Of a DNA stretch of 64,000 nucleotides, positions 10,643 to 33,400 are shown piece by piece. A program made the translations under genes and the position numbers. Where the stretch lies: NCBI GenBank assembly GCA_945874895.1, contig CAMCIC010000004.1:62001-126000 (forward strand). Direction: 5' to 3'. Every line of letters starts with the position of its first letter. Within the stretch, counting starts at the first letter, position 1. Below the pieces are notes generated by a model. That model was given only the letters and a program-made list of their open reading frames with translations, was not told the DNA's origin and searched no databases. The stretch comes from Akkermansia muciniphila. GTDB taxonomy: Bacteria > Verrucomicrobiota > Verrucomicrobiia > Verrucomicrobiales > Akkermansiaceae.

Positions 10643-10821
10643 GATGTGGTCAAAAAAAAGATTACCGCACAAGGCGGGGAGGGAAGTAAATCGGTTATTC
10701 CAGAGCATCGCAACCATAATTGCATGCCAGTCGTCGGTTTTTTCTTGAAAAAATTTCTAAGGTTTTTCTCGGCGCGGTGTCTTTATCTCTGTAACACCAT
10801 GGATTACTCCATTCGGCTCAG

Positions 10822-11397
10822 ATGAATCATCGATCTCCAAACGTTGTGCCACATGCTGCGACCCAAAAGTCTGCAGACGATGTGGGCGTTTCGGGTGAGC
10901 CCCTCAGCCTGCGATCCCTCTTCGACGCCGAGGAATCAGCCCTGCTCCGTTTTGCCTATGGAGTGGTGGGACATCTCGAAACCGCGCAAGACCTCGTGCA
11001 GGAGGCATTTTTGCGCCTGCACGAACACTGGCATGAGGTGGAGCATCCCAAGCCTTGGCTGTATCGATCGGTGCGAAACATGGCGATCAACTACCTCAGG
11101 GATCATCGCAAGGAGAGGCAAATCAGTGAAGGAGCCGACTGGGAGAGTGAGTCGCCCACGGCAGCACAGGTATTGGGACGCCACGAAGCAGTCGGCGTGC
11201 TCCGCATGCTAATGGCAGAAATGCCGACACAGGATCAGCAGCTGATTTCATGGAAATATCTGAACGGTCTTTCCTATGAGGAAATCAGCCGGCAATCGGG
11301 TCTATCGATCAGCAATGTGGGCTACAAACTGCATCATTTGCTCAAGTCACTGGCAGATGGCATGCGGCGCATGGGCGTGGAAAGCGGGGAAGGATAA
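10822..11397 (+). CDS. ECF-type RNA polymerase sigma factor
   Basis: The 191-aa protein has region 2 at about residues 39-100 (RFAYGVVGHLETAQDLVQEAFLRL, then KPWLYRSVRNMAINYLRDHRK) and region 4 at about 130-180 (NGLSYEEISRQSGLSISNVGYKLHHLLKSL, a helix-turn-helix). Regions 1 and 3 are absent, as in group 4 sigma factors. About 35 extra residues precede region 2. It redirects RNA polymerase to a small regulon, typically including its own operon. The next gene, 12 bases downstream, encodes a protein with an anti-sigma-like N-terminus and one TM, so the pair should form a membrane-linked sigma/anti-sigma switch. Confidence 0.9.
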   Translation: MNHRSPNVVPHAATQKSADDVGVSGEPLSLRSLFDAEESALLRFAYGVVGHLETAQDLVQEAFLRLHEHWHEVEHPKPWLYRSVRNMAINYLRDHRKERQISEGADWESESPTAAQVLGRHEAVGVLRMLMAEMPTQDQQLISWKYLNGLSYEEISRQSGLSISNVGYKLHHLLKSLADGMRRMGVESGEG

Positions 11398-11409
11398 AAT
11401 ATCACATCA

Positions 11410-13905
11410 ATGAATGAAGAATATTCACATTTGACAGCCACGGGTGACGAAGCCACGGAGGCAAGAATCATCGCTTGGGTGCTTGGAGAAACATCGGCCT
11501 TTGAGTCCGCCGAGTTGGAAAAACTTTGCTCAGATCAACCCGAGTGGAGGGTGTTTCAACGTCGTATGCACGTCTTGCACGATTGTCTCAGAGAGGCACA
11601 TACCGCGCAACCATCATCCGAGTGGACGTTGCCGGATGAGAAACGTCAGAAACTGAATGAAGTCATGGGGGGAGCGGAGAAGGCGAAGCCATCCATCAAG
11701 CACCCGCGTCGCCAGATATGGCGTAGGATTGTCGGCATGGCCGCTTGTCTGGGACTGCTGGTGGCGGTGATGAGTCTCATGACTGGCAAGTTCGAGACCC
11801 TGATCGATACAGCCATGAAAACAACGCAGGAGGCGGAAATCGCCGAATTTGCCTATGTTGAAGCAGACCCGCCGCCGATGACACGCATGGTCAGGAATCC
11901 CGTAAGAGCGGCAGATCGTGCAGAGGCTCCCGCTCATGACCTTCTGATGAAAGGCAAGAAGGAAGAAACTTTGACTGGCCAGATCGCCACGGTATCCAGT
12001 CTAAAACTTCCTACAGATGAGAATGCATATTACCCGCTCACGTCGTCAGATTTTGTAATGAATGAAGCGATCGCGGATGCTCAGCCCAGAAGCGGAAAAT
12101 GGGTAACGTCTGATACCTCTTCACGCGCTCAAACAATCGGATCATTGACCAATCCATCTTTGCAGCAGGCTGGAAAAGGTGAGGGTAGTAGTGCTGGCGG
12201 AGGCGGGTCACGCTTGCGTGAGGCCGAAGGATGGGCCATCACTGGGCAATCCGATGGATCGCAAACAGCCTATCAGTCTTCAATACGAGAAGCTTCCTCC
12301 CAAGTTCATGCGGGCCGAAAATCGGACATTGTCGACAACGATTTACAAGAAAATCGTCTCCGTGCCTATGATGGTGCCCGCGCAGAATGGGACACAGATA
12401 TCGACAAGTCGTTGGAACGGCAAGTCGCTGAGAAAAAAACAAAAGAGTCGACTCCCTCGTCTGTCGTCCCATCCGCGATGGCGGCGGACGGCGTTTTCGC
12501 CGGCAAATACATCGATGCTATTTCAGGCAAGATCTTGGATGAACTTCAAAAATCAGCCACTACCGCAGCCCCCACTCGATCGCCCCATCCGGAATTATGG
12601 GCTTCTCAGGAACCCTATTCCACCTTTTCACTGCGAGTCAGCGACAACTCATTCCGCATGGCTCAAGCTGCGATGGCTCAGAACGAGAAACCTGCTGCTG
12701 ACTCAATACGAGTTGAAGAGTTTTACAATGCTTTTGATTACGCCGATCCCATGCCCGCCGCCCAAGAACCTGTTGCGATATGCATGGAGCAATCATCTCA
12801 TCCCGTTCTGCCACAGCGTCAACTGCTCCGCATCGCCCTGCGCACTGCCTCAGCAGGACGCGATGCCTCTCAACCGCTCCATTTGACCTTGTTGGTGGAT
12901 CAGTCCGGATCCATGGCTCGTAGCGATCGCCACAAGACCCTGATGGAAGCAATCAAAGAACTAGGATCTCTGCTCCAAGCCCAGGATCAGATTTCGCTCA
13001 TTGGATTCTCTCGCACACCCCGATTGCTTGCAGAAAAAATCCCAGGAAACGAGATGCCACGCATTTTGGAACAACTCGCTCGAACCCCCAGTGACGGTGG
13101 CACCAATTTGGAAGAAGCACTGAAACTCGCTGAACTGGTTGCCAGTCGAAATCAAAACCCGACTTCAATCAACCGCATTATGCTTATGACTGATGGAGCT
13201 GCAAACCTCGGCAACGCAGACCCTCAGCGATTGTCCACTTGGGTAAAAGAACTGCGCCAGAAAAAGATCGCATTCGATGTCGCGGGAGTTGGCACCGATG
13301 GATTGAATGACCCGCTTTTGTTAGAAATCGCACGACACGGCAATGGTCGTTATTTTATCATGAGCGACGACACGCAAACACAGCAGTCATTTGCCACCCA
13401 ACTCGCCGGTGCTTTTCGCCCAGCAGCGGAAAATGTCAAAGTGCAAGTTGTGTTCAACCCTCGCAGGGTCGGTCGATACCAACTCATCGGTTTCGAAAAA
13501 GACCGTCTGCAACAGGAAGACTTTCGCAATGACAGCGTCGATGCTGCGGAAATGGCCGCGGCAGAAGCAGGTCAGGCACTGTATCAGTTGGAGATCCTGC
13601 CCGACGGCGTTGGGGAGATCGGTGAGGTCTTTGTTCGGTTCCGTGATGCTGCTTCAAAGCAGATGATGGAACGCAAATGGACCATCCGGCATGATGCTTC
13701 AGCACCAACCTTCGAACGAGCCTCTCCCACTCTCCAACTCGCTGGTCTCGCGATGCTCACCGCACAAAAACTGCAAGGTGGAGAAGGGGCCTCCATGGTG
13801 CGCTTTTCGGAAATGGCTGAGACCTGCCGACACGTCCAACAATCCTTCCCCCATAGCCAAAGAGTAGGCGAACTCATCGAAATGATCCAACAACTTCAAG
13901 ACTAA
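11410..13905 (+). CDS. VWA (YfbK-like) membrane protein with anti-sigma-like N-terminus
   Basis: The 831-aa protein has three parts. Residues 1-85 resemble the N-terminus of anti-sigma proteins (ARIIAWVLGETSAFESAELEKL). A membrane helix follows at about 105-122. The rest should be periplasmic: a Gly/Ser-rich linker, a YfbK-type N-terminal VWA domain (YSTFSLRVSDNSFRMAQAA, about 400-450), a von Willebrand factor A domain (about 490-670) with an intact MIDAS (DQSGSMARSD, TDGAANLG), and a DUF3520-like tail. VWA domains bind partners through a metal ion. The architecture suggests a receptor that releases the upstream sigma factor; this is inference. It is 12 bases after the sigma gene and 3 bases before the 2263-aa gene. 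Confidence 0.85.
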   Translation: MNEEYSHLTATGDEATEARIIAWVLGETSAFESAELEKLCSDQPEWRVFQRRMHVLHDCLREAHTAQPSSEWTLPDEKRQKLNEVMGGAEKAKPSIKHPRRQIWRRIVGMAACLGLLVAVMSLMTGKFETLIDTAMKTTQEAEIAEFAYVEADPPPMTRMVRNPVRAADRAEAPAHDLLMKGKKEETLTGQIATVSSLKLPTDENAYYPLTSSDFVMNEAIADAQPRSGKWVTSDTSSRAQTIGSLTNPSLQQAGKGEGSSAGGGGSRLREAEGWAITGQSDGSQTAYQSSIREASSQVHAGRKSDIVDNDLQENRLRAYDGARAEWDTDIDKSLERQVAEKKTKESTPSSVVPSAMAADGVFAGKYIDAISGKILDELQKSATTAAPTRSPHPELWASQEPYSTFSLRVSDNSFRMAQAAMAQNEKPAADSIRVEEFYNAFDYADPMPAAQEPVAICMEQSSHPVLPQRQLLRIALRTASAGRDASQPLHLTLLVDQSGSMARSDRHKTLMEAIKELGSLLQAQDQISLIGFSRTPRLLAEKIPGNEMPRILEQLARTPSDGGTNLEEALKLAELVASRNQNPTSINRIMLMTDGAANLGNADPQRLSTWVKELRQKKIAFDVAGVGTDGLNDPLLLEIARHGNGRYFIMSDDTQTQQSFATQLAGAFRPAAENVKVQVVFNPRRVGRYQLIGFEKDRLQQEDFRNDSVDAAEMAAAEAGQALYQLEILPDGVGEIGEVFVRFRDAASKQMMERKWTIRHDASAPTFERASPTLQLAGLAMLTAQKLQGGEGASMVRFSEMAETCRHVQQSFPHSQRVGELIEMIQQLQD

Positions 13906-13908
13906 ACT

Positions 13909-16900
13909 ATGATGAATCCATTCCTTCGATCCTTCCTCTCTTGCTTCCTTATAGGCTTGATGACATGGAGCCAAGCCCAACAAAGAGAGGAAGATGGTGT
14001 GATGTTCATCCCTACCACCAAGTCCATCAAAACTGTCGCCACCTTCTTCTCCGCCCATGCTGACACCATCATAAGTCGCCATTCCGAACGATTGGATACC
14101 GTTTCCACGGTTCGCTATGACCTTCACCAGGGACAAGGGGATCGACTCAGCTTGTCGATCACGGGACAAGGCGAGGTGACCGAAGTGACGGGAGACGGAT
14201 TGCTGGATTGGTCACTGCGGCGCGATGCTCAGGGGCAACGATTTTTAGACGTGAAGGTTCATACCGCAGATCCACTGCGCAAACAGTGGGTCATGCAAGT
14301 GAAGAGCCGATTGCTCCTGCGTGCCGAATCCAAATCCTGCGAGGTAGCACTCCTGGGGCAGGGTAATGCTGTGGGTTTTACGTCCCAAGTGACTTTTTCT
14401 TCTGATAATAACCTTGTGCCACGGGTGATCGAAGTAGAAAACCTTGCAGCTGTGGAAAAAGCCTTGCCGCTGAGGTTTGTGGGATCAGGCATGCCGAAAA
14501 TGCGCGTGGATGTATCGCCCTCCGATAACGATGTCACATTCCGTGACACTCGACTCACAGGAACGGTAGCAGCAGACCAACACTCGGTGTCCTTTTTGTT
14601 CCAAGCCAAGGCTCAAGTGAAGCGGGCTGGCGTGGCGATGGAGCTTTTTCGCGGCGCGGTCGCCATGCATGAGGCGACTTCCGGTGATGGCTGGCATGTG
14701 CGCCTGCGACAAGATCGGAGTGATTGCACCTTCGATTGGATTGCGGATCGCGAGGGAGAGATGAAGGTGGAGATTCGTTTCGAGGTTCCGGTCCAACGGA
14801 TCAACGAAATGTGGACCGTCGATTTTGTCGTTCCTGCAGGTGTAGTTGCCCCATTGTGGCTGGAGGGTCTTTCGACACGGGTGCAGTTCGACTCGCAAAA
14901 ACCCGTCGTGCCATCCCCGCAGGAAGGAAAGTGGCGGGGCTTTTTGCCCGCTGATGGCAAGGCCTGCTTTGCTTGGAAGGAAGGTCAGGACATGGCAGAA
15001 GGAGCCCTGTTTTTTTCTAGCGCGGAGATTTCAGACATTCGTGTTGGCAGCGGACTCCTGCGCCAGACGAGTCGATTGGATCTCCGTGTGCTGCAGGGCA
15101 AGCTTCCCTCGATCTCCCTCCAGTTGCACGGCGAAGGCGAGGTCTTGAGTGTGCAAGGTGATCAAGTTGTGGGATGGACGATCCATGAGAATCAAGCAGG
15201 GCGCATTCTCGCTGTTCAATTCAGTGGACCGATGACTGGCGCAGGTCGTTTATCTTTCGAATTTCAATCTCCTTTGGGGAATTTTCCCACCAAGTCCGAG
15301 GGCCTGAGATTGACTCCGATCGGATCACTCAGACACAGCGGATGGTTGCGCATTGCCAACGAGGGAGCTGTGAAAATCGAGGTGTCTGCCGCCAAGGACT
15401 TGATCCAGTTGTCGCCGGAGCAATTTCCGTTAGAAAATCAAAATCTTCGCCAGTCATTTGTCTACCGTTTTCCGAGTGCAGGATATGCTTATCAGATCAG
15501 TGCTGATCATGTATTGCCAGAAACCACAGTTCAGGAACTGACCCTATACGAACTCGCCGAAACGGATCGCCGCATTCATTGCGATTTGGAAATCGACATC
15601 CGTGAAGCGCCACTGCGTGAGTGGGAGTTTCTTGTCCCAGAAGATTACACCGTTGTGTCTTGCAGCGGCGCATCCGTCTCTGATTTTACCCTTGCCTCGA
15701 CGAAGAGCGGGGAATATCGAACACTGAAAATTCTATTTCGTGATGCAGTGAGAGACCGCCAGTTGATCCAATTGCGTTTGGAAAAAAATGAAGCGGCAAA
15801 GGCCGGTGGGTGGAAGCTTCCACGCCTCCACTTTCCTCATGCAAAGACTCATCGTGGATTCTTGGGCATCGCCTCCGTACCGGGATTTCGAATCAGCGCT
15901 GACGAGAGAAAAAATCTCAACGAGGTTCCGCTATCGTATTTCCCGAAACAATGGCAAGGACTGCAGCAAGCTTATCGCATGAAAGAATCTTCTTGGTCGG
16001 CGGAAATGAAAATCGAGACCCTCGGTCAAAGCATTCAGGCAGACGTTTTCCACTTATATTCCGTTAAAGAAGGCGCAGTGTATGGTTCGGTATTGTTTAA
16101 CTTTTTCGTTGTCGGCACTCCATCCAGTGAATGGCGTGTAAAGGTTCCAGAGAGCATCGGAAATATCGAGATCACGGGGCAGAACATCGGTCACGAATGG
16201 CGGCGGGAAGGCGATGAATTGGTAGTGCCTTTGTCCCGACCATTGCTCGGAGCGGCCACCATGCTGCTTTGTTTCGAACAGCCGATCAAGGCGGCAGGTG
16301 GTGAGATTTCTCCAGGGGAAATTCGTCCTGTGGGTGTGCAGAGTGAAAGCGGTTACATTCAAGTCGTGAGCCCTTTGCAGGTCGATTTTCAAGTCACCGA
16401 GAACAAGGGGAACATCTTGCCTTTGCTGGTCAACGAACTACCTGCCGATTATCGAGTATTGAGCACTGCTCCTACACTTTCCGCCTGGCAGTATACCGCC
16501 CGAGAATTTTCGATCCGGATGAAGTTCCAGTGGTTTCCATCCGGCGAAACCGTTGAGCAGGTAGTGGACTTTGTTCAACTCGGAAGCCAAGTTTCGCGTG
16601 ACGGACAAGTGGTGACCGAGGCGAAATTTTTTGTGAAATCGAAGCGTCGCGAGGCATTGCGCATGGTGTTGCATGAGGGAGCCATCTTGCTCGAAACCAA
16701 AGTCAACGGTGCGACTGCGAATCCACGCGTAGACAACAGCGAGATTGTCATTCCGCTACCGCAAAAAAACGATCTGAATCAAGCCGTAGAAGTACTTTTG
16801 CGGTATGGTTCTTCTTCATCGGGCGACTCTGCCATCACCTTGCAGGCACCGGTGCTGCAAGCGCCAACCGTCATTGGTGAGTGGAAGGTTACGGGCGATG

Positions 16901-19900
16901 AGGGAAGAATCCTTACCCCTGTGGGAGGCACGGCGGAAATCGTGCGCAAGCCGTTTTTGCCAGATGGTTTCGAATGGCTATCGAAGCATTCCAGCAGTGC
17001 GTGGATGCTAGTTGCTTTGCTTGCGCTCGCTTGGTTGCTATCCCGTCGCCCCAAGTATGCTTCGACACTATGGGTTCTTGGTGCAATCATGACAGGGTGG
17101 CTTTCATTTGATAGTTTTTCTCACAACATTTCTACGCCATCTGTTCTCGAATACGCCGCGCCTGTGGTCAACGCTGGGGCGCAGATGAACGTAATATTGG
17201 AGAACCATGGTGTATGGAGATCCGCGCTTACTCCAGGCTTCTGGTGCTTGTTGGCGCTGAGCATTCCTCTGCTCTACCGCGGTTGGCAGAAGTGCGACCG
17301 ACGGTTTCTGGGCGCGGCGCTGATGTCGATCGCGCTCGCACTGTTATTCCTGCGCAATGGGATCACAATCTTTTTCTCTGTTTTTTGTCTTTCATGCTTG
17401 ATCATGTGCATGATGCGAATTCGTGATGGGAGAATGCTTCGTCCTCGATCTTCAGCGATCGCACTCGTGCTGATTTCCCTGATTTTTTCAATGACCGGTT
17501 TCTCTGCGATGGCGCAGGATGGGCGGAGTGAAAAATTCCCCGAACAGTTGCTGTTTTCCTGTAAAATCCGTGAGCGAAGATTGACGGGAACGGTTCAAAT
17601 TGCGGTGCGCGCCGAACCCGGAGACCGTTTTGCACTTCTCCACGCTCCAGCAGTGCTAGGGGAATTTTTATCAGATGGTCTGAGAGTGGTGAGGGAAACA
17701 CGCGACGGTCAGTCCGAGTATGTGATGATCGCCGATCGGGCAGGCTCCTTATCCGCAAATGCACAATTTGAAATGTCTCTGCCAGAGGATCAGAAACCAT
17801 GGACCTTGCCCACGACCTCCGCAGCCGTTCGCAAACTATCTTTGCGCTCGAATCAAGCAGGATGGGACTGGTCGTCCGCCGCAGCTGTGCGACGCGATCC
17901 TTTGCCTGACCTAACGGAAAACGAAAGTGGTGCCTTGCTGCTGTTGCAACCCACGGCCGCGATTGAAATCGTGCCGCAACCGCGAGAACGAGATCTCAGC
18001 AAAGAAAAATCCGTCTATTTTGTTGAGTCATCACAATTATTCATTCCTTTTCCTGGAGTGGTGAACGGACTTCATTCGGTCAGTGTGCGTCCATCACAGG
18101 GACAGGTTGCAGACCTCGTCTTACGCGTGCCTAGTGGATTCACGGTCAGCGATGTCACCGACGGCCCCGTAAGAGTCTGGCGCTTCGAACCCGATCGCTC
18201 TGAATTGCGCGTCTCCTTCGAACCCGCGTTGCATAAGGCATTTTCATTTACCGTCCATACACAGCAAAGCACTCCCGCGTTGCCCTTGGATCTGAAGTTG
18301 GAACCCTTGCGAGTCATGGGCGCAGCCAGCGAAGTCGGCATTTTGGCATTGGCTTTCGGAAATGATGCTCAGCCGGATAAGGCATCGGTGCAAGGTCTCG
18401 TGGCGGTGAACCCTGAAGATTTCCCGCCCAAAATGTTGCCCTGCGACTCCCAAGGACGCCCCTTGGTAACACTGCATCAGGTCTATCGATTTGGCGCGGC
18501 ACAAGCCCTGCTCAACCTGCGCGTGGCGGCCGTGGCGCCAGAAATGCGAGCCGAGAGCTGGCATGTGCTTTCTCTGGGTGACGATCGCTTGGTGTTATCC
18601 ACCGAAATCACAGTATCCATCACTCGCGCAGGCATCTTCCGTTTGCTCCTAGAGGTTCCACGCGGTCTGGAGTTGGAGAGCGCTTCGGGGTCATCTCTGA
18701 GCCATTGGACTGAAGCAGAGTCCGAGGGCGGACGATTGATGACCTTGCACTTGCAGGGGCGCACGATGGGACAACAACAATTCCAACTCACATTTACCGG
18801 ACAATCTCCCGGCAATCAGGCGTCCTGGCAGATTCCGCGTTTGGCAGTTCGCGAAGCGACCCGAGAGTCGGGGTTGATGGTCGTCGTGCCGGAGCAGGGG
18901 ATGCGACTGGGAGTGGTTGAACGCGATCGAGTTTCCCCCGTAGATCCGCGGGATTTGAGCGATGCCCCCCAGGCACAATCTCGCGCCGCCATGCGAACGG
19001 GAGCCATTGCTTTTCGTTTGCTGCAGAAAGATTGGAAAGTCGCTCTGTCTGTGAATGAATTGGATCCGTGGGTCACCGCGCAGGTTTATCACGAAACAAC
19101 ACTGCGCGAAGGCCAACTCAACAGCAAGGTAAGCCTCAGCTATCAGATCGAAAATGCGACGATGAAACAAATTCGCATCCGATTGCCTGGGCTCAACGAT
19201 GTTGCCGCAGGCACGTTGCGCGCATCCGGCGACCATGTCGCAGATTTGCGCAAAGCCAGCGGTGAAACGGATGTGTGGGAAATCCGTTTCCAGCGTGGTG
19301 TGTCGGGCAGCACCGTGGTCGATCTGGAGTTTCAACAACAACTGAACGATCAACAATTTGTATCGTTGGAACCCGTTCGCGTATTGGATGCAAGACAGGT
19401 AGCGTATTTTTCCGCAGTTCGTTCGGGCGGTCGAATGGAATTGAGCGTGGATGGCCCCTTGCCTGAGGGATGGATCGCGCACGATTGGGCGGCGATTCAA
19501 TCATCCATCCCGAAACTCCGCACCATCGTCTCTCCTGCACTTTCCTTCAAGGTGACCAACCCCGAGCAGGCCTTGAAGCTGTCATTTCAACGCCACCAAT
19601 TGGCGGATGTGCAGAAAATGCGAGTCGAACAAGGACAACTGACCACCTTGATTTCATCGCGTGGCGCTGCTCTGACCGCGGTGCGCTTGCAAGTACAGGT
19701 TGCGGAAAAGGGCACTTTGCGTTTGCGCTTACCGAACGGTGCGGATCTGTACAACGTTCTGGTGAATGACGAAGGAGTGTCACTTGTCAGACAAGGTGAC
19801 GAATGGCTCTTCCACGTTTTCCCTGCCGCGGATGCGCGGGAACCGTCTTGCGTGCGCTTTGTCTACGCCTCCACGACTGGTGATAGCATGAAGCTCGAAG

Positions 19901-20700
19901 GTCCATCGCTGCATGTGCCCATGGAGAATTTGTCGTGGCAGGTATTGATTCCGGACGGATGGTCTCTGCGCGATTACCATGGAGATTTCAAATGGAAAAC
20001 GGAGAGTCATGTAGGATCTTTCCGATTGGAAAACTATCGTGACTACGTGAATGCACGAAAGGCGAACAGTTCGGCAGAAGCCATGGAATTGTTCGATCAA
20101 GCCAGCCATTGGATCAGCAAGGGGGATCAGGAAAAAGCCTCGATCGCTCTTGGCAATGCGGCTCGCAACGGCTTGCTCGATGAAGCATCGAACGAAGACG
20201 CGCGCGTGCAACTGCGCGAATTGCGAACCCAACAAGCTGTGCTAGGACTCAACACACGACGTCAAAAAATGTTTCTCGACAACAAGACTCAGTCGGGCAG
20301 CAACAACAAGCAACTCGAGCAGGCGGCGCTTGCCAACCCACTGTTGCAAGGCAAAGCCAACTATGACCCCACGCAGTTTGATCGTTTCATCGAAGGCAAC
20401 ACCGCTGATGAAAATGCTGCCTTGCAGGGGATAGCCCAGCGCATCGTAAGCCAGCAACTTGCGGTTGAACCAGCCCCTTCGGGTCTTGAAATCACTGTGC
20501 CTGAAAGAGGTTCCATGTTGACATTCACCCGCAGCATTCAAGTCGATGGCGGAAAATCAATGCATCTGCAGTTGTCACTGGAGCGCGAACAGAAGACCTC
20601 TTATGTTTTGGGCATAATGCTTTGTGCGTTGCTCGCATGGGGCATCACGCTTCCACGACTCAAAAAGCTGCAGGAAAATACCCACCAACCTCCTGCGTAA
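13909..20700 (+). CDS. Giant two-lobed membrane protein of the sigma-VWA operon, unknown
   Basis: The 2263-aa protein starts with a signal peptide (to about residue 24, WSQAQQ). A large beta-rich extracytoplasmic region follows to about 1025. Then come roughly five hydrophobic helices between 1030 and 1165, and a sixth at about 1182-1205 that ends FSAMAQDG, like a second signal peptide. A second large beta-rich lobe runs from 1205 to about 2040, followed by a helical TPR-like stretch (about 2050-2120) and one C-terminal TM (about 2231-2248) with a basic tail. The layout looks like two similar exported proteins joined through a membrane domain. I recognise no family. Being the last gene of the operon, it is probably the structural or sensory output of the ECF/VWA pair. 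Confidence 0.85.
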   Translation: MMNPFLRSFLSCFLIGLMTWSQAQQREEDGVMFIPTTKSIKTVATFFSAHADTIISRHSERLDTVSTVRYDLHQGQGDRLSLSITGQGEVTEVTGDGLLDWSLRRDAQGQRFLDVKVHTADPLRKQWVMQVKSRLLLRAESKSCEVALLGQGNAVGFTSQVTFSSDNNLVPRVIEVENLAAVEKALPLRFVGSGMPKMRVDVSPSDNDVTFRDTRLTGTVAADQHSVSFLFQAKAQVKRAGVAMELFRGAVAMHEATSGDGWHVRLRQDRSDCTFDWIADREGEMKVEIRFEVPVQRINEMWTVDFVVPAGVVAPLWLEGLSTRVQFDSQKPVVPSPQEGKWRGFLPADGKACFAWKEGQDMAEGALFFSSAEISDIRVGSGLLRQTSRLDLRVLQGKLPSISLQLHGEGEVLSVQGDQVVGWTIHENQAGRILAVQFSGPMTGAGRLSFEFQSPLGNFPTKSEGLRLTPIGSLRHSGWLRIANEGAVKIEVSAAKDLIQLSPEQFPLENQNLRQSFVYRFPSAGYAYQISADHVLPETTVQELTLYELAETDRRIHCDLEIDIREAPLREWEFLVPEDYTVVSCSGASVSDFTLASTKSGEYRTLKILFRDAVRDRQLIQLRLEKNEAAKAGGWKLPRLHFPHAKTHRGFLGIASVPGFRISADERKNLNEVPLSYFPKQWQGLQQAYRMKESSWSAEMKIETLGQSIQADVFHLYSVKEGAVYGSVLFNFFVVGTPSSEWRVKVPESIGNIEITGQNIGHEWRREGDELVVPLSRPLLGAATMLLCFEQPIKAAGGEISPGEIRPVGVQSESGYIQVVSPLQVDFQVTENKGNILPLLVNELPADYRVLSTAPTLSAWQYTAREFSIRMKFQWFPSGETVEQVVDFVQLGSQVSRDGQVVTEAKFFVKSKRREALRMVLHEGAILLETKVNGATANPRVDNSEIVIPLPQKNDLNQAVEVLLRYGSSSSGDSAITLQAPVLQAPTVIGEWKVTGDEGRILTPVGGTAEIVRKPFLPDGFEWLSKHSSSAWMLVALLALAWLLSRRPKYASTLWVLGAIMTGWLSFDSFSHNISTPSVLEYAAPVVNAGAQMNVILENHGVWRSALTPGFWCLLALSIPLLYRGWQKCDRRFLGAALMSIALALLFLRNGITIFFSVFCLSCLIMCMMRIRDGRMLRPRSSAIALVLISLIFSMTGFSAMAQDGRSEKFPEQLLFSCKIRERRLTGTVQIAVRAEPGDRFALLHAPAVLGEFLSDGLRVVRETRDGQSEYVMIADRAGSLSANAQFEMSLPEDQKPWTLPTTSAAVRKLSLRSNQAGWDWSSAAAVRRDPLPDLTENESGALLLLQPTAAIEIVPQPRERDLSKEKSVYFVESSQLFIPFPGVVNGLHSVSVRPSQGQVADLVLRVPSGFTVSDVTDGPVRVWRFEPDRSELRVSFEPALHKAFSFTVHTQQSTPALPLDLKLEPLRVMGAASEVGILALAFGNDAQPDKASVQGLVAVNPEDFPPKMLPCDSQGRPLVTLHQVYRFGAAQALLNLRVAAVAPEMRAESWHVLSLGDDRLVLSTEITVSITRAGIFRLLLEVPRGLELESASGSSLSHWTEAESEGGRLMTLHLQGRTMGQQQFQLTFTGQSPGNQASWQIPRLAVREATRESGLMVVVPEQGMRLGVVERDRVSPVDPRDLSDAPQAQSRAAMRTGAIAFRLLQKDWKVALSVNELDPWVTAQVYHETTLREGQLNSKVSLSYQIENATMKQIRIRLPGLNDVAAGTLRASGDHVADLRKASGETDVWEIRFQRGVSGSTVVDLEFQQQLNDQQFVSLEPVRVLDARQVAYFSAVRSGGRMELSVDGPLPEGWIAHDWAAIQSSIPKLRTIVSPALSFKVTNPEQALKLSFQRHQLADVQKMRVEQGQLTTLISSRGAALTAVRLQVQVAEKGTLRLRLPNGADLYNVLVNDEGVSLVRQGDEWLFHVFPAADAREPSCVRFVYASTTGDSMKLEGPSLHVPMENLSWQVLIPDGWSLRDYHGDFKWKTESHVGSFRLENYRDYVNARKANSSAEAMELFDQASHWISKGDQEKASIALGNAARNGLLDEASNEDARVQLRELRTQQAVLGLNTRRQKMFLDNKTQSGSNNKQLEQAALANPLLQGKANYDPTQFDRFIEGNTADENAALQGIAQRIVSQQLAVEPAPSGLEITVPERGSMLTFTRSIQVDGGKSMHLQLSLEREQKTSYVLGIMLCALLAWGITLPRLKKLQENTHQPPA

Positions 20701-20806: not shown

Positions 20807-20883
<77 letters not shown>

Positions 20884-21036: not shown

Positions 21037-22083
21037 ATGAACATCGCGCTGCTCACCAAGATCAGTGGAATTTTACGCGATACTTTCTCCCCAGCGGCGA
21101 CTGCTTGCCGTTCCAATTGGCGAGTGCTGTCCTTCATGTCATCTCGTCGATCGACACGGATGTCTAGATATTGGATCATGCCGACGGCCTTCCCGCGCCG
21201 GTGCCTGCAACGCCTCCTTTGTCATTGCCATCAGTGGAACGCTGCGCAGCCAGCTCATCGCCATCTACGGCAAGACCCTGCGTCATAGTTTTGACAACGC
21301 GGATCCCAGCACCAGCCTACACCTCATCAGCGCGTGGGCGGTTGACAACCAACTGACCCTCGGTCAGCTCGTCGTGGATGGAAAATCCAATGAAATCACC
21401 GCAATGCCCGAACTGATTGATCGACTGGATCTTGATGGTCACATCGTGAGTCTTGACGCCATGGGTTGCTAAAAGAACATTGCCCGCAAGCTCGATATGG
21501 CGCGTGCCGACTACTTGCTGGCCCTCAAGACCAATCATGGATCACTTCACAAACGGGCCGAGGAATTTTTTAGCAACCCAGGACACCTTCGCCACAACAA
21601 ACAGCAAGGCGAAACTCTCAGCACAGCGGACGAGAGCAACCGAGGGCATGGAAGGATCGAGAGGCGGGTGGTGCTGGTCACCGATAGCTTTTCGTGGATC
21701 GACAAACTGGAGCGACAAGAATGGCCAGGTCTGCGCTCGGTGGTCTGCGTCGAGTCTCATCTCGAGCAGATTGGCAGCGGGGAGAAGATCGTGCAAAAGC
21801 GCTACTACCTTACGATCCTCGCACCTGATGCATCGCGCCTGTTGCACTGATCCACCAACATTGCTCCATCGAAAACCAGTGCCATTGGGTGCTGGATTTG
21901 ACTTTTGACGAGGACCAATGCCGGGTTCGCAAAGACCACGCGGCGCTCAATCTGGCAATGCTGCGCAGGGTCTGCCTCTCACTGCTCAAACAGGATACAA
22001 CGTTCAAAGACTCCTTGAGAGGCAACCGATACAGGGCCGCTGGAGCGATATGATTTCGCCTCTGCAGCATTGTTTTTCATCCT
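21037..22083 (+). pseudogene. Broken ISAs1-family transposase
   Basis: The conserved body reads RSQLIAIYGKTLRHSFD, LHLISAWAVDNQLTLGQ, KSNEITAMPELIDRLDLDG, DAMGC, DYLLALKTNH, all typical of ISAs1 transposases (IDGKTxRxS, LVSAW, VDEKSNEITAIP, DAMGCQ). It is dead in several ways. A TAA at 21470-21472 replaces the residue after DAMGC. A frameshift near 21847 moves the next part (IENQCHW, LTFDEDQCRVRKDHAALNLA) to another frame, and the tail near 22050 is shifted again. The N-terminal part before about 21230 is hard to follow. I could not find terminal inverted repeats. Confidence 0.8.
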
Positions 22084-22147
22084 GTTCGTCATTGATCTTC
22101 TCTCGACACGTAAGTGATCAAGTGGTTCCTTTGTATGGATTTTTGCA

Positions 22148-22735
22148 ATGAAGCTCCCATGCCAATTCCTGATATTAGCTGCCGCCCTTTTGCCAATTCG
22201 CGCCGAGGTGGAGTGCCCGCCGGTATTTGGCTCCCACATGCTAATGCCGCGCGATCAACCAGTCCCCATGCGGGGTATTACGGTTGCGGGAGATATAGTC
22301 ACGGTGCAATTCGGCGGCGAAAAAACGCAGGCGACCGCAAGTCAGGACGGAGCACGGCAAGTAAAAATCCCTCTGTTTGTTGCTAGCGAGGAACCCCAGA
22401 CGCTTGTGGTGAGTTTCACCAAAGAACTCCGCTTCGATGACTTGCCAGTCGGTGCGGTCTGGCTTTGTTCCGGCCAATCAAATATGGAGAAAAAGCTTGG
22501 CAACGGCAGTGCGCAACGGCCGATGGAGCATGCCGATGAGGTGATCCTCAACGTGAACCACTCTCTGATCCGTCTTTTCCAGATGCCTCAGCGAGTGTCT
22601 CTCGAGTTGGTGGTCACTGTCTGCCGACTCACGGACTATGATGACAGCAGTTGGGTAATGATACTGGAGACGGGGCGATTGCGCGCGAAGAAATTTCGTC
22701 AGAATTTGCGAATGGCGGGAGTGATCTCTATATGA
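22148..22735 (+). pseudogene. Truncated sialate O-acetylesterase
   Basis: Residues 1-20 form a signal peptide. Residues 21-155 then match the N-terminal part of SASA-family esterases: PPVFGSHMLMPRDQPVPMRG, WLCSGQSNME with the nucleophile Ser, and IRLFQMPQRVSLE. After about residue 155 the match stops, and 40 unrelated residues lead to a stop. The family is normally about 500-650 aa and its catalytic Asp/His lie in the missing part, so this product should be inactive. Intact enzymes remove O-acetyl groups from sialic acids or related sugars. The break adjoins the start of the ECF sigma gene, pointing to a recombination junction near 22610-22750. Confidence 0.75.
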
Positions 22736-22751: not shown

Positions 22752-23291
22752 ATGAACGAGTCAGACTCTCCGCAGACGATTGATGCGCAATTCGTGACGC
22801 TCCTAGCGCGGCATGAACCGGTGGTCAGGGCGTATCTGCGTGCTCTGCTGCCCAGCGCCGCGGATGTGGATACCGTGATGCCTGAAGTGGCACTGGTGGC
22901 GTGGCGGAAGTTTGCGGAACTTGAGGATCCCGAGGCCTTCGGGCGATGGGCGTGTGTGATCGCGCGCTACGAAGTGCTGCGCTATCGGCGCGACAAGGCG
23001 AGGGATCGATTTCTGCTCGACGAGGAATTGCTCTCTCGAATCGCAGATGAAGGCGTCCCAGAAATCACGCGGCTCGATCGACAAATGGCCGCTCTGGAGT
23101 GTTGCCTCGAGAAGCTGCCAGCGTCGCGCCGGAAACTAGTGCTCGGATGTTACGCGCCTGGCGCTTCGATCCGTAAGATCGCGGCGCTTTCTGGGCAGAG
23201 CGAAGAAGGACTTTACCAATTGCTCCGGCGCATCCGCCTGAAGCTGCAACAATGTGTCGAAACCACCCTGAGCCAGGAGAACCTGTCATGA
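22752..23291 (+). CDS. ECF sigma factor (Rhodopirellula/Verrucomicrobium type)
   Basis: The 179-aa protein carries region 2 (VVRAYLRALLPSAADVDTVMPEVALVAWRKF, about 18-50, then WACVIARYEVLRYRRDK) and region 4 (LEKLPASRRKLVLGCYAPG, IRKIAALSGQSEEGLYQLL). Spacing and motifs resemble the large ECF group expanded in planctomycetes and verrucomicrobia. Its stop overlaps the start of the anti-sigma-like gene (ATGA at 23288-23291), so the two are translationally coupled. Likely targets are its own operon and perhaps the giant surface protein gene at 24500; this is inferred from position. Confidence 0.88.
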   Translation: MNESDSPQTIDAQFVTLLARHEPVVRAYLRALLPSAADVDTVMPEVALVAWRKFAELEDPEAFGRWACVIARYEVLRYRRDKARDRFLLDEELLSRIADEGVPEITRLDRQMAALECCLEKLPASRRKLVLGCYAPGASIRKIAALSGQSEEGLYQLLRRIRLKLQQCVETTLSQENLS

Positions 23292-24499: not shown

Positions 24500-27400
24500 G
24501 TGAAAAACCAAACTTCCCAAACTTCCCAAACTTCCCAAACTTCCCAAACTTCCCAAACTTCCCGTGCATTCCGTGCTGCGTTCCTCTCCGCGTTATGTCT
24601 CTCCATGTTGGCGATTTGTGCAAGCACCTTGGAGGCCGCCGTCATCCATTGGGGCGCGCCACGTGACATCGCGGGCGATACCGACGTCAGTACTAACGGC
24701 GTGCTGGTGAAAGCCATCGCCAAGTCCGGAAACGAATATCCCACCGTCAATGGCGTCACCTTTTGTCCGGCCTACGGAAACGACACGGTCTCCGGCACGA
24801 ACGCTAGCAACTACGCCACGGGCAGCCTGCCGGTCGGCGGTGGCATCAGCCAGAGTTACGCCACGCTGTTGAGCAAGAACGACTATAATACAGGGACCGG
24901 CTCAACCGTCACCCTGACGATCAACGGGCTGAAAACGGGCTACCACTACGAGATCCAGGTGTGGATGAACGACTCGAGCGCGTCGGGTCAGGGAACTCTC
25001 ACCGTAAAATCTTCGGGCGGCGCGGACCCATGGGTGCAGCTCGACGCCAACAAGACCGGAACCACCGGTGGGCTCGGCCAGCATGCCATTGGCACTTTCA
25101 CCGCGGACGGAGCCAGCCAGACGGTGACTTTCAAAGGCAGCGTCAACGGCATGATCCAGGCCTATCAGGTCCGCCGGGTGCCCGCTCCTCTCGCCGCGGT
25201 GGCGTGGGGCGCATGGAAGGAAATCACCGGCAACACGGACGTGAACACGAATGGCTCGGCGGTGAAGGCCTATGTCTTCGGTTCGGCGTCTCCGGCGGCG
25301 GCCATCAACGGGGTGACCTTCACCCGCTTCGCGGCGCAGTCTGTGGACACCTTGTCCGGTTTCACCACGTCGAGTTCTGATGTGTTTGGTTCGAGCAGCG
25401 CGCCGTATTCGGGCTTCACGAGCGACTACAAGAAGATCCTCGGCAGCGGGGCTTACGGCGGGAGAAACGCATCGATGACTTTGAACAGCCTGACGCCCGG
25501 CCAGTGGTATGAGGTGCAGGTCTGGGTGAACGATTCGCGGGCGCTCGCTGGCGGCCGCACCGTGCGCATCAACGGCTCTGCATTTCTAAACCATAACCCC
25601 GGCGGACCGAGCGACAACCTGGCCTACGAGGGAAACACGGGCCATCACATGACCGGCACGTTCAGAGCCAGCGCGGCCAGCCAGCGGTTTGATTTCGTGG
25701 CAAGCTCCTCGGCGCAAATCAACGGCCTGCAACTGCGCTCGATCCCGGTGGTGGATTCGCTGGCGTTCGATGCGATGCAACGCCGCCAGTTCACGATCAA
25801 CAGCTTCATTGACGGGAAAATGAGCACCACGCAGCGCTTCGAGAAGGTCCACCTCCTTTTCGGCACGGGGCAGATCGCCACGGCGAAAACGGAGGCGCGT
25901 TCCGCCTCGCTATGGTGGGGCGCCGGCAATGAATACACCTTCGATGGGTATCCGGCGATCGACATGGTGATCCGCTGGAAGAAGTATATCGACACCACAT
26001 CACGCAACGCCATCAAGGGCCGGCTGCCGTCCATCAACTATGTGACGCCCGGCACGTCCAATTTGCAGAAGCTGGCGTGGACCATGCGTTTTCTGGGATC
26101 GGAGGAATTCGGTGAGGAAGCATTCCAGCATCCCAGGAATGATTACCGCGCCAGTGACCCGAATTGTCGCAAGACTCTGCTGCAGAGGCTGAAGGACGAG
26201 GCGAACTATGGCTGTCGGGAATTCGCATCCAATGACTACAGCATCCTGAACATCCTGCCTTCTTTGAGCATTGCACAGCTCGCCAAGGACCCTGAGCTGC
26301 GCGCCCATGCCACGGCCAGCTTCCCCGCCATGCTGGCGCAGATGGCCGCCGTGTGGCAACCGAAGGACAATTACATCGGAGTCTGGAGTTGGCGCGATTA
26401 CGAGGACCAGAACGGGAAACTTGGGGTTTTCGGTAGTATGCTGTGGCAGACCTTCGGCAGTTATGTGCGCAGCGGCGAAGCCAAGGCGATGGCACTCCTT
26501 GCGGCCAGCGACTACCGCGTGCCGACGCCGATTCTCCACGCCGCGAATCAACGCTCCACGGTTTACACCTCCCGTCTGTATGGCGGAAGCGCCTCTCAAA
26601 CCGGGTTTGTGAGCGGTGACGATTACATTCTCTTCAGCGCCTGCGACAACGACAACGAGAACAACAACTGGAGCCACCCGTATGGCGTGCGCTGGAGTGG
26701 CATGACAAGCTACTTCTGGCTTGGTGCCTGCTCCTCGGACTACGCGGAGGACATCAGAGACGCCAAGAACCACGGCACCAACAGCTATAACATGGGAACG
26801 GTGCAACACCGCGATTCCGTGCTGTATGCCTTTGACTTCACAGGTCCTTACCCCGCAGCCACCAATGTGCCGTATGCGCAGAGCCAGGTGCCCGGTAGCT
26901 ACACGGCCATGATCAATGATTCCGCCACCGGGCGGATCTATCTGCACTATGGAAGAGTGATGATCGCGGTGACCTCCAGCATTCCATTCAATTGGAATCC
27001 GAACTCGGGCATCTGGTCGGCGCGCCACACTCCCTCTCCCGGTGATTCCGAGTTCCGCGTGGCGGTGGGCGGTGTGGGATATCCGTTGGTTGCTGGGAAC
27101 CCGGCTTACAAGTCCACGATAGACAACGCCAACAACCGCTTTGCCATGGCCATCGAGACGGCGAATCCCACCGAATACGCCGGCGCAACCGCCGCCGAGC
27201 AGCTGGCGGCCTTCAAGGCGGACATTGTGGCGAGCACCAGCATCAGCCATCTCAACGCCTACCCCGCCACCGGCTATTACACCAACCGCCACGGGGACAC
27301 CCTGCAAAAGCAAAGCTATGACGCGTCCGGCACACGCAGACCGGGCTACATCAATGGCGTCTCGGTGGACTACAACAACTGGCCGATCCTCGAGAATCCC

Positions 27401-30400
27401 TGGATGAAGCAGGCCGAAAACAGCGGGCTGGCGACCATCACCGCCGGCGGCCGGCAGACCGTGCTCAATTTTAACAGCGGCGGCATGACCCACAGCGCAG
27501 TCACACCCACCGGTGGACCGCTGCCGCAAGTGGGTTCCGATCCAGCGACCAGCGTCACAACCAACTCGGCGGTGTGCAACGGGCTGTTGGTCTCCCCCGG
27601 ATCAAGTGCGGCCACCGTGACACTCTACTGGGGAACCACGGACGGTGGCGACAACCCCGCCGCCTGGGCTAACAACCAATCGCTCGGCACTCCGGTGGCA
27701 GGCGCATTGGCGACCACGATCTCCGGACTGGCGGGTGGCACGACCTATTACTACCGGCACTTTACGTCCAACACTGAGGGCGATGTCTGGTCCAACTGTT
27801 CCACCTCCTTTCAAACCCTCATCCCACAGACGGTGACCGCCCCTCCCGGAGTTCCAGCTTTGCCCACCACCATCCTCACCGTCGGCTCCGTGCCACTGAC
27901 CTGGGCTGCGGTTGCGGATGCGACGAGCTATAACATCAAACGCGCCACCACCAGTGGCGGACCCTACACTACCATCAAGACCGCCCAGGCCACGGCCAGC
28001 TACACGGATACTACGGCGGTCAACGGCACCGTTTATTACTACGTCGTTTCCGCCGTGAATGCGGGCGGGGAAAGCGTGAACTCCGGGGAGTTGAAAGCCA
28101 CCTCGGCGGTCGTGCCCGCTGCTCCCACCGGTGTGGCGACGTCCATGGGCTACATGTATGCCCGCATTTCCTGGACCGCCACGCCCTGGGCCGCGACTTA
28201 CACGGTGAAGCGCTCGCCAACCAGTGGCGGACCCTACACTGTGATTGCCTCCGGATTGACGAGTCCCGTTTACGATGATCCGACGGCGGTGAACCTGAGC
28301 ACTTACTACTACGTCGTCTCGGCCACGAACGTCGCGGGCGAGGGAGCGAACTCCAGCCAGGTTTCCATCACCGTGAACGTGGCCAGTTATATCAACCAGC
28401 TCTCAGGAAACTGGAGCACGAACACTTGGTATCCAAATCCTCCGGGAACTCCGGTCTCCGGCACCACCACGATCATCGATTTTGGAAACAGCGCGGCGAT
28501 TTCCAGCAACAACGACATGGGGAGCTTCACTATCAACAAGCTTCGTTTCATGGATCAAGGCGTGACCCTCAACGGCAATGCCCTGCTCTTCAGCGGGAGC
28601 AACCCCACGGTGTCCAGTTTCAACAACGTGGCCAGCAGCATCGCCAACGCCCTCACGCTGGGCGCGACCACCACCTTCGATGTGGCGACCAACGTGCTCA
28701 CGGTCAACGGAGTCATCAGCGGCACCGGCGGACTGATCAAGACCGGCAATGGCACGCTGGTGCTGGGCGGCATCAACACTTACACCGGCAACACGACCAT
28801 GGGCAGCGGCACGCTTTCCCTGACAGCCAATGCGCCCGGACTGAAGAGCCTCATCTTTGGCGCGGCTCAGGCCAGCCCCAATACCGCCACCCTGATTGTC
28901 TCGGCAGACGCCACCGCCACCAGCCTCACCGCCTGGACGAACACCACCGCATCCAACTCCCTCTACATCGGAGCAGGCAAAACCCTGACCGTGAATGGCG
29001 CGGTGAACATCCACACCACCGGCTCAACCGGCACGAGGCTGGTCTTCAACCGGACTGGTGCCGTGCCCACATCCGCATTCACCGTCAATAACAGCGCCGC
29101 CGATTTCCTCTTCGCTCAGGCTACGGATACCGCTTCCACACGCATCAACACTCTCGACATGCGCAATGTCGGCACCTTCACCGCGAACGTCGCCAACTTC
29201 CGGAACGGCTGGTCCACGACAGTCAACTACGCAACGCCCGGCACGAACACTCTGTATCTTGCCACCAACAACACCATCACCACCGCAAGTGGCGGCACCC
29301 TGAGCGTGGGCGACACGAACATGAGCGGCGGTGGTGGCGGGGCCAGCACCCTCTATCTGGGCAGCGGTAACAACACGATCCAGTCCAATACCATCGCGGT
29401 CGGACGGAGCATGACCATTGATGGCTCCACGCCCACCGGCCGGATTCTTTTCAACGGCACAACAGGCAACCTCACCTTGCGCGGTTCCGCCGGTGGCTCC
29501 ACCGCCGTCACGAACTTCTACGTCGGCATGCACACGGACACGGGCTCGGCGCACCCGGACTCCAAACGCATCGGCCTCGTGGACCTCACCGATGGCACGA
29601 CGACCGGAGCCATCACCAACCTTTATTTGGGTTACAACACCCAGAACACGAACGCGGCAGGCGATGCCGAAGGAACCTTCCTGCTGGGAGGCAGAGCCAG
29701 CAGCCTGTCGGTTTCAAATCTCTATCTCGGCTATTCCACTGTCGCATCCAGTACCAATTACTACGCCAAAGGTGAACTCGATCTCAGCGACGGCACGTTG
29801 AATGTCACCGGCAATATCACCATGGCCTACGACGGTGCCTCTGGTGCCGCCGCGGGCATGGGCGGCACGCTCCTCCTCAGCGGCGGCACACTCACGGTGG
29901 GCGGAAACATCGTCGCTGGTGGTGCCAGCGGGGTTTCTTCCCTCACGCTGAATGGCGGCACGCTCGACATGACCGGCGGAGCCATCGGCAGCGCCACCAA
30001 CCCGGTGGACTCCCTCGTCTTTCAAAGCGGCACACTCCAGAATGTCGCCTCCATCAATGGCAGCGCGGGCCTTACCCAAACGGAAGCGGGCATGCTCGTC
30101 CTCAGCGGCAACAATACCTATGCCGGAAGGACCACCGTCGCGGGCGATACCGTGCAAGTCACCGGCACGCTGAGCGGCCCGGTCACGGTGAATGCCGGGG
30201 CCACCCTTTCCGGCAGCGGCACCATCGGCGGCGCTGTCATCGCCAATGGCGAACTGGCACCCGGCATCAATGGCGTCGGCAGACTGCAAATCAACAATGC
30301 GCTGACACTCGGATCCGCCAGCACCACCACAGTCTTCACAAACCGCACGGCATCCCCTAACAGCACGGGAGTCGGCGGGCTCACTACGATCACCTATGGC

Positions 30401-33400
30401 GGCACTCTCATAGTGTCGGATCTCGGTGGCGGGCTTGCCGTGGGGGACACTTTTGTCCTCTTCTCTTCCGGCAGCTATGCGGGTTCGTTCTCAGCCTTGG
30501 ATCTCCCAGCCTTGGGCGCGGGTCTGGTTTGGGATACCCGCAAGCTCTCGGTGAACGGCAGCATCGCAGTCTCTGTTGCGCCCGTCGTGACAGCGGTTGC
30601 CGGAACCGCCCAAGTCACCTTGAATTGGACCGCCATCCCCGGCGCGACCAGCTACAACATCAAGAGGTCATTGGTGAGCGGCGGCCCCTACACCCTCATC
30701 GCTTCCGGCGTGACGACGACCAGTTATACCGACACCAACCTCGATCCCTCCACCACCTATTACTACACCGTTTCCGCGGTGATCGCGGCCGTGGAAGGCG
30801 TCGATTCAAACGAGGTTTCCGCAGCCACCGCCGCCGGATCGATCGCCCGATACTGGGACACGAGCAGCACCGCCGGACTTCAGGGCGGAGCCGGCACCTG
30901 GAACACCGCCACCGCGGCATGGAGCAATGGCACTGGTGGAAACAGCCTGCTCCTGACCTGGCGTGACAACGTACCCGCCCTGTTCCAAAGCGGAACCAAC
31001 ACGGTCACGGTAAGCGGAACGATCGCTGTGGGCTCCATCGCCCAGTCACTCAACGGCACCAGCACCACCATCAACGGCGGCACCTTGCAACTCAACGGCA
31101 CGGGCGGAATCAGCAACGGAGTCTCCAGTGGAAACCAGTCGCTCACCATCAGCTCCGCGCTGGTCCTCAACTCTGCCACTTTCCCGGTCAACACCCAGCA
31201 GCCGATCAATCTGAACGGCGCGATGAGTGGATCCGCTGACTTGATCAAGACCGGTCCTTCCACCCTCACTCTTGGTGGAGCAAACACGGTCGCTGGCGAT
31301 GTGGTTCTCGACGCCGGCACGCTTTCCTATGGAAACAGCGCTTCCAAGGTGGAGGCGCTAACCTTCGGCGCGGCTCTGGGAAGCACCAACTCCAGCACCC
31401 TCAATCTGGCAGGAAATGTTACCGCCACCAGTCTCTCCGTGCGAAACAACAGCGTCGCCAACAACGTCATCTCCATCGCGTCCGGCAAGGTCCTCGCGAT
31501 CAACGGCGGTCTGACCATGAACACCGTGAGCGGCGGCACCGCCAACCTGGTCGTCAGCGGCGCGGGAGCGATGACGATCAGCAACCCCGCCGCCACCATC
31601 CTCATCGGCGCGACGAGTGATGCGAATACCCGCACCTTCAACCTGGACATGAGCGGACTGACCGGCGGCTTCACCACCCAGGTCGCGAACTTCTACGTCG
31701 GCAGGGCTACGGCCAGTGCCAACAGTGTTCCTAATGCCACGGTCAAACTCGCACCCAGCAGCAATATCTCCGCAGTCAACTTCAGCATCGGCGACGACAA
31801 CGGCAACGGCGGCAACGGCGGTGGTCAATCCACCACCGTGACGCTGGCCGGCGGCACGAATTTCTTCAAAACGACCACCCTCACGGTCGGGCGCATCAAA
31901 TCCGGTACCCAAACGCTGAACTTCGCCTCCGGCGGCGGCACTCTCGCCCTATCCGGCACGACCAGCGGCGCACTCGGAACGATGTATGTCGGCTACAAAC
32001 CTCACACCGGCAGCAGCAGCAACGTCACTGGTGTTGCGGATTTCTCCAACGGCACGGTCACGGGATCCATCGGCAATCTCTACGTCGGCCACATGACCTC
32101 ATCCCAAGGCAGCAACACTCCGAAAGCGGTCGGCACCTTCACGCTTGGAACAAGCTCCGCCAACAACCTGACGGTGACCAACCTGAACATCGGCACCTTC
32201 GTCGGCACCACTGTGCCGACATCCACCAAATATTCCGACGGCACGGTGAACCTCAAGGGCGGACAGTGGACGGTCACCACGGTGGACATGACCTCCGAGC
32301 AGTATAGCTTCGCCCGGCTCAATATTACCGGCGGCTCGATGGCCGTCTCCAACGTCATTACCGGCGGCCCCGGTGGCAATGAAGCGCTCACGCTTAACGG
32401 CGGCACGCTCGACATGACCGGCGGTGCCATCGGCGACGCCACCAACACCGTCACCACGCTCAATTTCCAAAGCGGAACTCTGAAGAACGTCACCACGATC
32501 AATGGAACCGCAGGCCTCACCAAAACGACGGCTGGCACGCTCACCCTAGATGGCACCATGGGATACACCGGTGTCACGACCATCAGCGCAGGCACCTTGC
32601 GGGTCGGCGCGGCGAGCGGCACGAATACCACCACCTCGCTCGCCACTTCCAGCAGCATCGTCAACAATGCCACGCTCATCCTCCGCCGCACCGATGCCGC
32701 CGAAGTCGATGTCGCAGGCAGCATCAGCGGCACAGGCAGCGTCCTTTACGAAGGCAGCGGCACCATAAACCAAAGCCGCTACACCGGTGACAGCGCCAGC
32801 ACCTACAGCGGCGCTACGTCAATCAGCAATGCCCGCGTGAACCTGACCACCGCCACAGGTTTCGGCAGTGGTGCCGTCACCATCAACAGCGGTGCCACCG
32901 CCTTCATCAACGGCGCAGGCACCGTGGCGAACCCCTTCACCCTCGCCGGCAACGGTTGGATCGAAACCGCCGGACAACTCGGTGCCCTACGACTGGCCGC
33001 CGGCAGCGTTTTGACCGGAGCCATCACCCTCGCCGGCAACACCCGCATCGCGGTCAACACCGCGGGCACCGCCACCATCAGCAGCCCCATCAGCGGTGCC
33101 TTCGACCTCGAAGTCGGCGAAGACTCGGCCGCCGGTATGCTCATTCTCACCGGCGCGCACACCTACACCGGCAACACCACCATCAGTGCGGGCACACTTG
33201 TAGTCGATGGCGTTCTTGCCTCGGGTGGCGGCGCGGTGACGGTAGGCGGGTCGGGAGTTCTCACCGGCACCGGTACGATCTATCGTCCGGTCATCATCAA
33301 CGGCCGTCTGGTCAACGGCATCGGAGGTGCAGGATCACTGGTTTTTTCCAACACGCTCACCCTGGCGGCGGGCAGCAGCACCACGATTTCCCTCAACCGC

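Follow-up and report, generated by a model that had tools for sequence, protein, structure and literature searches.

Layout and distribution of the three-gene unit

The window, by which we mean the whole 64,000-nucleotide stretch of Akkermansia muciniphila DNA analysed here, contains three tightly spaced genes on the forward strand, separated by 12 bases (SIG/VWA) and 3 bases (VWA/GIA), as an earlier sequence-only reading of this DNA had described. SIG (10822..11397) encodes a 191-aa ECF sigma factor, an assignment of the same reading that Pfam bears out: Sigma70_r2 (PF04542, residues 33-97, 8e-15) and Sigma70_r4_2 (PF08281, residues 127-177, 4e-11) are present, and no further Pfam domain lies above cut-off. 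SIG thus consists of sigma regions 2 and 4 only, with the short linker typical of ECF group IV, and the co-encoded anti-sigma factor expected of ECF systems is represented by VWA, directly 3′ of SIG in about 100 loci. VWA (11410..13905) encodes an 831-aa membrane protein that combines a predicted anti-sigma domain, a transmembrane (TM) segment, a variable linker and the domains vWF_A, VWA (with MIDAS) and YfbK_C. GIA (13909..20700) encodes a 2263-aa two-lobed membrane protein.

GIA was found in 27 of the 60 genomes of the family (one of them with a remnant only), in 49/236 genomes of the class and in 61/289 of the phylum. The sequence-only reading had proposed searching verrucomicrobial and planctomycete genomes for the same three-gene order, and would have been abandoned had the homologues not co-occurred. 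Every one of the 26 family genomes counted as having GIA also has the long VWA protein, and the SIG-VWA-GIA order recurs in Verrucomicrobiota and in some planctomycete genomes. It was observed in 24 of the 25 family loci for which flanks were fetched (the remaining one ends at a contig end), in 16 class loci, in 10 loci from other classes and in 51/76 named-genome loci, nearly all others of which end at a contig end. The resulting figure of about 100 loci is redundant, because the named and unnamed locus sets overlap; conservation of the order on this scale nevertheless argues against chance. The unit ranges over the Verrucomicrobiota and a few Planctomycetota, its carriers including Luteolibacter, Haloferula, Opitutaceae and Rubritalea, as well as Rhodopirellula maiorica SM1 and a Rubripirellula, so that the joint occurrence of the three genes spans different genera, families and classes and two phyla. 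Exceptions to the order are deep GIA relatives that lack both SIG and VWA (L098, L099, L102, L104 and L132). Rubritalea profundi (L193) is a further exception, its VWA gene being divided into a 377-aa ORF for the anti-sigma/TM part and a 730-aa ORF for the VWA part, and its GIA gene into ORFs of 525 and 1775 aa; these splits may be real or may reflect sequencing error.

Of the 60 family genomes, the 26 with the long VWA protein are precisely those with full GIA, and six family genomes contain SIG orthologues (E<=1e-25) without GIA. In three such loci (L118, L119 and L120), the gene after SIG encodes a protein of 317-442 aa that has an anti-sigma domain and a TM segment and lacks the VWA domain. 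In another (L144), the contig ends within the anti-sigma domain that follows SIG, and in G058/L143 SIG is kept without any neighbouring anti-sigma gene. At L145, in a genome of the same genus as the window, SIG is truncated and lies beside a SurA-like gene, the same neighbour as in the window. The losses are scattered over several genera. Since three GIA-less genomes keep SIG with a VWA-less anti-sigma protein, SIG and the anti-sigma domain stay together as one unit, and the VWA ectodomain is tied to GIA in a second.

Anti-sigma and VWA domains of the middle protein

The sequence-only reading had described the middle protein as an anti-sigma-like cytoplasmic part, one TM segment and an exported VWA domain with intact MIDAS, an architecture that Pfam, hydropathy and the orthologues uphold. 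Its first ~95 residues (11410..11694) align across all orthologues. In the six most distant orthologues, which belong to other classes, the motif H-x3-C-x2-C is invariant (alignment A8); four of these pass the zf-HC2 cut-off, one falls just below it and one matches weakly. An intermediate without the cysteines (L092) also scores above the cut-off. The motif is absent from the window lineage, where the zinc ligands have been lost, and the window's own N-terminus has no Pfam match. Zinc ASDIs (class I anti-sigma domains) are defined by Hx3Cx2C, and zinc and non-zinc forms are intermixed in one tree; the fold comprises three bundled helices and a helix 4, and about 44% of ASDIs lack the motif (PMC7406223). 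For this reason, the missing motif does not exclude the window lineage from the ASDIs.

Profile-profile comparisons connected the window lineage to intermediates (6e-18) and the intermediates to the zinc set (8e-10), the two ends also matching directly (5e-6). The first PDB matches of a joint profile (A6) were RslA (E 2.4e-4), RsiW (0.0076), DdvA and ChrR, two of them below 0.01. Homology to known ASDIs depends on the distant orthologues in this profile, as the close-lineage profile alone matched no solved anti-sigma factor in the PDB. A structural model of SIG with the anti-sigma domain reached a mean pLDDT of 81.5 and a pTM of 0.70, with anti-sigma helices 1-3 above 90. This model, scored by pLDDT and pTM, was made from an artificial fusion in which one TAA was read as Gln (code 6); the modelled helices (210-220, 226-238, 240-261 and 272-286 of the joined construct) form a three-helix bundle and a linked helix 4, i.e. 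a class I anti-sigma fold. A fold search with the same model was uninformative on the placement of the anti-sigma domain, because only the sigma part aligned. Structure prediction of this region with the sigma factor had been suggested in the sequence-only reading, for which the lack of a sigma-binding fold in the N-terminal 85 residues would have been fatal; the confident four-helix model and the chain of profiles instead support a class I anti-sigma domain, predicted to bind and inhibit SIG.

The unit resembles the class I anti-sigma pairs RsiW-SigW, RslA-SigL, RskA-SigK and ChrR (PMC7406223), in which an ECF sigma factor is followed by a membrane protein with an N-terminal three-helix bundle and helix 4. 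Hx3Cx2C is shared by the distant members of the unit, the window lineage being non-zinc, and autoregulation is a likely further similarity. It differs from these pairs in its exported part, a YfbK-type VWA domain with MIDAS, in the giant third gene nearly always attached and in its upstream motif, CYAAG-N15-GNGTC[T] rather than the textbook AAC / CGT.

Beyond the cytoplasmic N-terminus, hydropathy indicates a single TM segment at residues ~103-125 (11716..11784), followed by the variable linker. PF12450, PF13519/PF00092 and PF12034 then occur in YfbK order, all above cut-off, the YfbK_C match being partial (~58 of 184 positions). The VWA domain (residues 492-660; 12883..13389) contains the MIDAS D497xSxS501, T565 and D595. 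Because D497, S499, S501 and D595 are invariant in 27/27 orthologues and T565 is mostly kept (22/27), the metal site has been retained. The VWA half thus matches the YfbK family (vWF_A, VWA and YfbK_C; PF12450/PF12034), from which the protein is distinguished by its N-terminal anti-sigma domain and TM segment and by its partnership with an ECF sigma factor and GIA.

Most family genomes contain a second, paralogous YfbK-type VWA gene, with an ECF sigma gene directly 5′ in 21/22 loci. These paralogous pairs (L292-L311, L117 and L147) share with the unit the ECF sigma factor directly 5′ of a YfbK-type VWA protein; they differ in a shorter N-terminus of another type ('DALLKEHAR...FL..LE') and lack a SIG-type sigma factor and the giant partner. 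The sequence-only reading had considered both a metal-binding VWA domain as the sensing part and a giant partner to be unusual in signalling. Judging by the paralogues, the VWA sensor is less singular than first thought; what stands is the oddity of GIA, and since the ECF-VWA pairing is recurrent in the family, GIA is the special addition.

Outside these families, the Bat system also combines VWA membrane proteins (BatA/BatB) with a large beta-rich periplasmic partner (BatD). We know of no sigma factor in Bat operons, and the unit differs in having one; GIA had no BatD match in Pfam.

The giant protein GIA

GIA gave no Pfam or NCBIfam match at E<=0.1, in keeping with the initial impression that the third protein lies outside known families. 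Its two-lobed nature was also borne out: residues 212-999 (lobe 1 core, 14542..16905) and ~1221-2017 (lobe 2 core, 17569..19959) are homologous (BLASTP 3e-28, hhalign 9e-38), GIA having arisen by internal duplication. Between the lobes, the consensus hydropathy of 58 orthologues reveals a multi-TM segment (residues 1028-1200; 16990..17508), and a C-terminal TM segment (residues 2232-2250; 20602..20658) is present in 57/58 orthologues. Given these segments and a signal-peptide-like N-terminus, both lobes would most simply be placed outside the membrane.

Lobe 2 was modelled as a set of beta-domains with a pLDDT of 87 and a pTM of 0.45, so that each domain can be trusted by itself, but not the way in which the domains are arranged. 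The best match of this lobe was ribophorin I/Ost1 (Foldseek E 6e-10 to 8b6l_O). Superposition on Ost1 was poor (VIA Z 15.6, rmsd ~20 over 311 aa; overall Z ~15, rmsd at least ~20 over 300-430 aa), and the likeness is therefore limited to single domains. The last domain of the predicted model (residues 1900-2225; 19606..20583) resembles the M1-aminopeptidase N-domain (VIA-align Z 13.7, rmsd 2.9 over 145 aa) and contains a conserved helical insert at residues 2040-2186. The M1/Ost1 beta-saddle comparison concerns mostly this domain of lobe 2. As modelled, lobe 2 resembles ribophorin I/Ost1 and M1 aminopeptidase N-domains in its beta-domain fold, at an identity of only ~8-12%; in contrast to the M1 enzymes, no catalytic peptidase domain was seen in GIA. 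Integrin matches of lobe 2 (TM at most ~0.16) were set aside as generic beta-sandwich similarity, and a search of a viral fold library returned mostly long beta-protein noise.

The existence of deep relatives without SIG or VWA (L098, L099, L102 and L104) indicates that GIA has a function of its own. In other lineages, single-lobe relatives of ~1150-1240 aa occur beside two-lobe ones, likewise without SIG or VWA. At L108, L109, L110, L137 and L139-L142, a single-lobe relative adjoins a larger GIA relative (two-lobe where complete), and several of these loci show a 'YVPYEEL/LPYEEF'-like N-terminal motif.

Promoter-like motif and a possible envelope response

A promoter-like motif, TTCTAAGGTTT-N11-GTGTC (CYAAG-N15-GNGTC[T]), lies on the forward strand at 10755..10781, 65 bases 5′ of the SIG start. 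It was first noticed by eye and then counted: CYAAG-N15-GNGTCT occurs 5′ of SIG in at least 43 of 95 non-redundant sequences, all at one spacing, where 0.08 is expected from mononucleotide shuffles and 13 other spacings gave one match in total. Another 32/95 upstream sequences have weaker forms, some of them by chance, and were not relied on. Textbook ECF promoter patterns (GGAAC/CGTC etc.) were mostly at chance level, G[AC]AACC-N15-17-CGT being slightly above it (5 vs 0.7 expected). SIG may recognise this conserved motif and so regulate its own operon.

In the window's own genome, TCYAAGR-N14-GKGTC has three matches: SIG, an alpha-2-macroglobulin gene and a doubtful site for which no downstream gene was found. 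The alpha-2-macroglobulin gene (G000:C18:16500-24500, L289) encodes a 2007-aa protein with MG2, A2M and bMG10 domains, and the motif is directly upstream of it. Nine of 16 orthologues carry the motif at the same spacing (0.03 expected), with none at other spacings. In a stricter scan of the 60 family genomes, 14 had a match and all but one of these carry SIG. The alpha-2-macroglobulin gene of G040, a genome scored as SIG-negative, has the motif, and another sigma factor may therefore share it. In the search for a wider regulon, many other matches were inside coding sequence or lacked a downstream gene; among other motif-linked genes, mostly for secreted proteins, no recurrence was seen except for alpha-2-macroglobulin.

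Our preferred reading, to which we assign a probability of roughly 0.5, is that the three genes form an autoregulated envelope-response operon built on an ECF sigma factor and its anti-sigma factor, with the release of SIG controlled by the VWA domain, probably via a metal-dependent contact with GIA. Homology, modelling and conservation speak for the sigma factor and the anti-sigma domain, for the link through the membrane and the metal site, for the motif and for VWA and GIA being kept together; we infer that SIG recognises the motif and that VWA touches GIA, as well as which way the signal runs, what the stimulus is and how SIG is released. At rest, the VWA domain would use its metal to hold on to an acidic site of GIA, and SIG would stay bound. 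Envelope damage, or GIA that is scarce or mis-assembled, would break this contact, and SIG would be freed by cleavage or conformational change. Freed SIG would raise its own operon, which includes GIA and the brake, as well as alpha-2-macroglobulin, and would do so until VWA and GIA were in contact again; GIA would thus be both the monitored thing and the main product. Some observations weigh against this reading, namely the window-lineage anti-sigma profile that alone matches no solved anti-sigma factor, the deep GIA relatives without SIG or VWA, the motif-bearing alpha-2-macroglobulin gene of G040 and the solitary SIG of G058/L143. Moreover, VWA and GIA would be lost together just as well if the two took part in some other process, and a part for the giant protein in signalling is something that we infer.

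In a rather unlikely alternative, the VWA domain would act in the assembly of GIA, and the anti-sigma tail would report unassembled GIA, which would then be purely an output (an envelope scaffold or adhesin) and not a sensor. The polycistronic order with GIA last, the presence of the motif mainly at the operon itself and the GIA relatives that stand alone elsewhere are all consistent with such a role. Loss of the VWA ectodomain together with GIA, while the sigma/anti-sigma pair stays, fits this model and the preferred one alike and does not separate them. Direct sensing of a ligand or divalent metal by the VWA domain, with GIA as a co-regulated envelope protein that makes no contact with VWA, appears less probable again: the MIDAS is intact, and the paralogues show that an ECF sigma gene can have a VWA-bearing neighbour in the absence of GIA (21 of 22 loci), but in the SIG system the VWA part is kept exactly when GIA is kept and lost when GIA is lost. 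Already disfavoured, and in our view highly improbable, is the reading in which no sigma/anti-sigma unit exists, the N-terminus being a helical stretch of other origin in a coincidental neighbourhood, as its lack of a Pfam match in the window and of a PDB anti-sigma match for the close-lineage profile might suggest. Against it stand the chain of profiles that leads to zinc anti-sigma domains, the Hx3Cx2C motif of the distant orthologues, the confident four-helix model and the conserved adjacency.

We tentatively suggest a previously undescribed form of envelope surveillance in the PVC group, in which a MIDAS-bearing VWA anti-sigma receptor would read a giant, duplicated, ribophorin/M1-N-domain-like inner-membrane protein, and release of the ECF sigma factor would rebuild the giant and arm the periplasm with alpha-2-macroglobulin. 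The sigma/anti-sigma principle is already known; what is new is the VWA ectodomain and the near-constant giant partner. No description of the SIG-VWA-GIA unit was found in the literature searched, which covered the field in part and did not include the main ECF classification paper. The analysis places a conserved, unnamed family of ~2300-aa proteins of the Verrucomicrobiota in a context that can be tested, ties a metal-binding VWA domain to the control of a sigma factor and offers a candidate promoter motif, together with a small set of candidate regulon members, for a phylum in which little is known about envelope signalling. Cultured members of Luteolibacter, Haloferula and Rubritalea, together with Rhodopirellula maiorica, make the unit testable.

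Directly 3′ of GIA, the window continues with a tRNA-Met gene (20807-20883) and apparently broken transposase and esterase ORFs (21065-22735), where three ORFs tested had no Pfam match. A second ECF sigma gene (22752-23291) overlaps a gene for a 334-aa protein with one hydrophobic stretch, and the two are followed by a 3543-aa protein with PATR, HYR and fn3 domains (24500-35131). The segment 22752-35131 has a GC content of ~0.60, compared with 0.52 around it.
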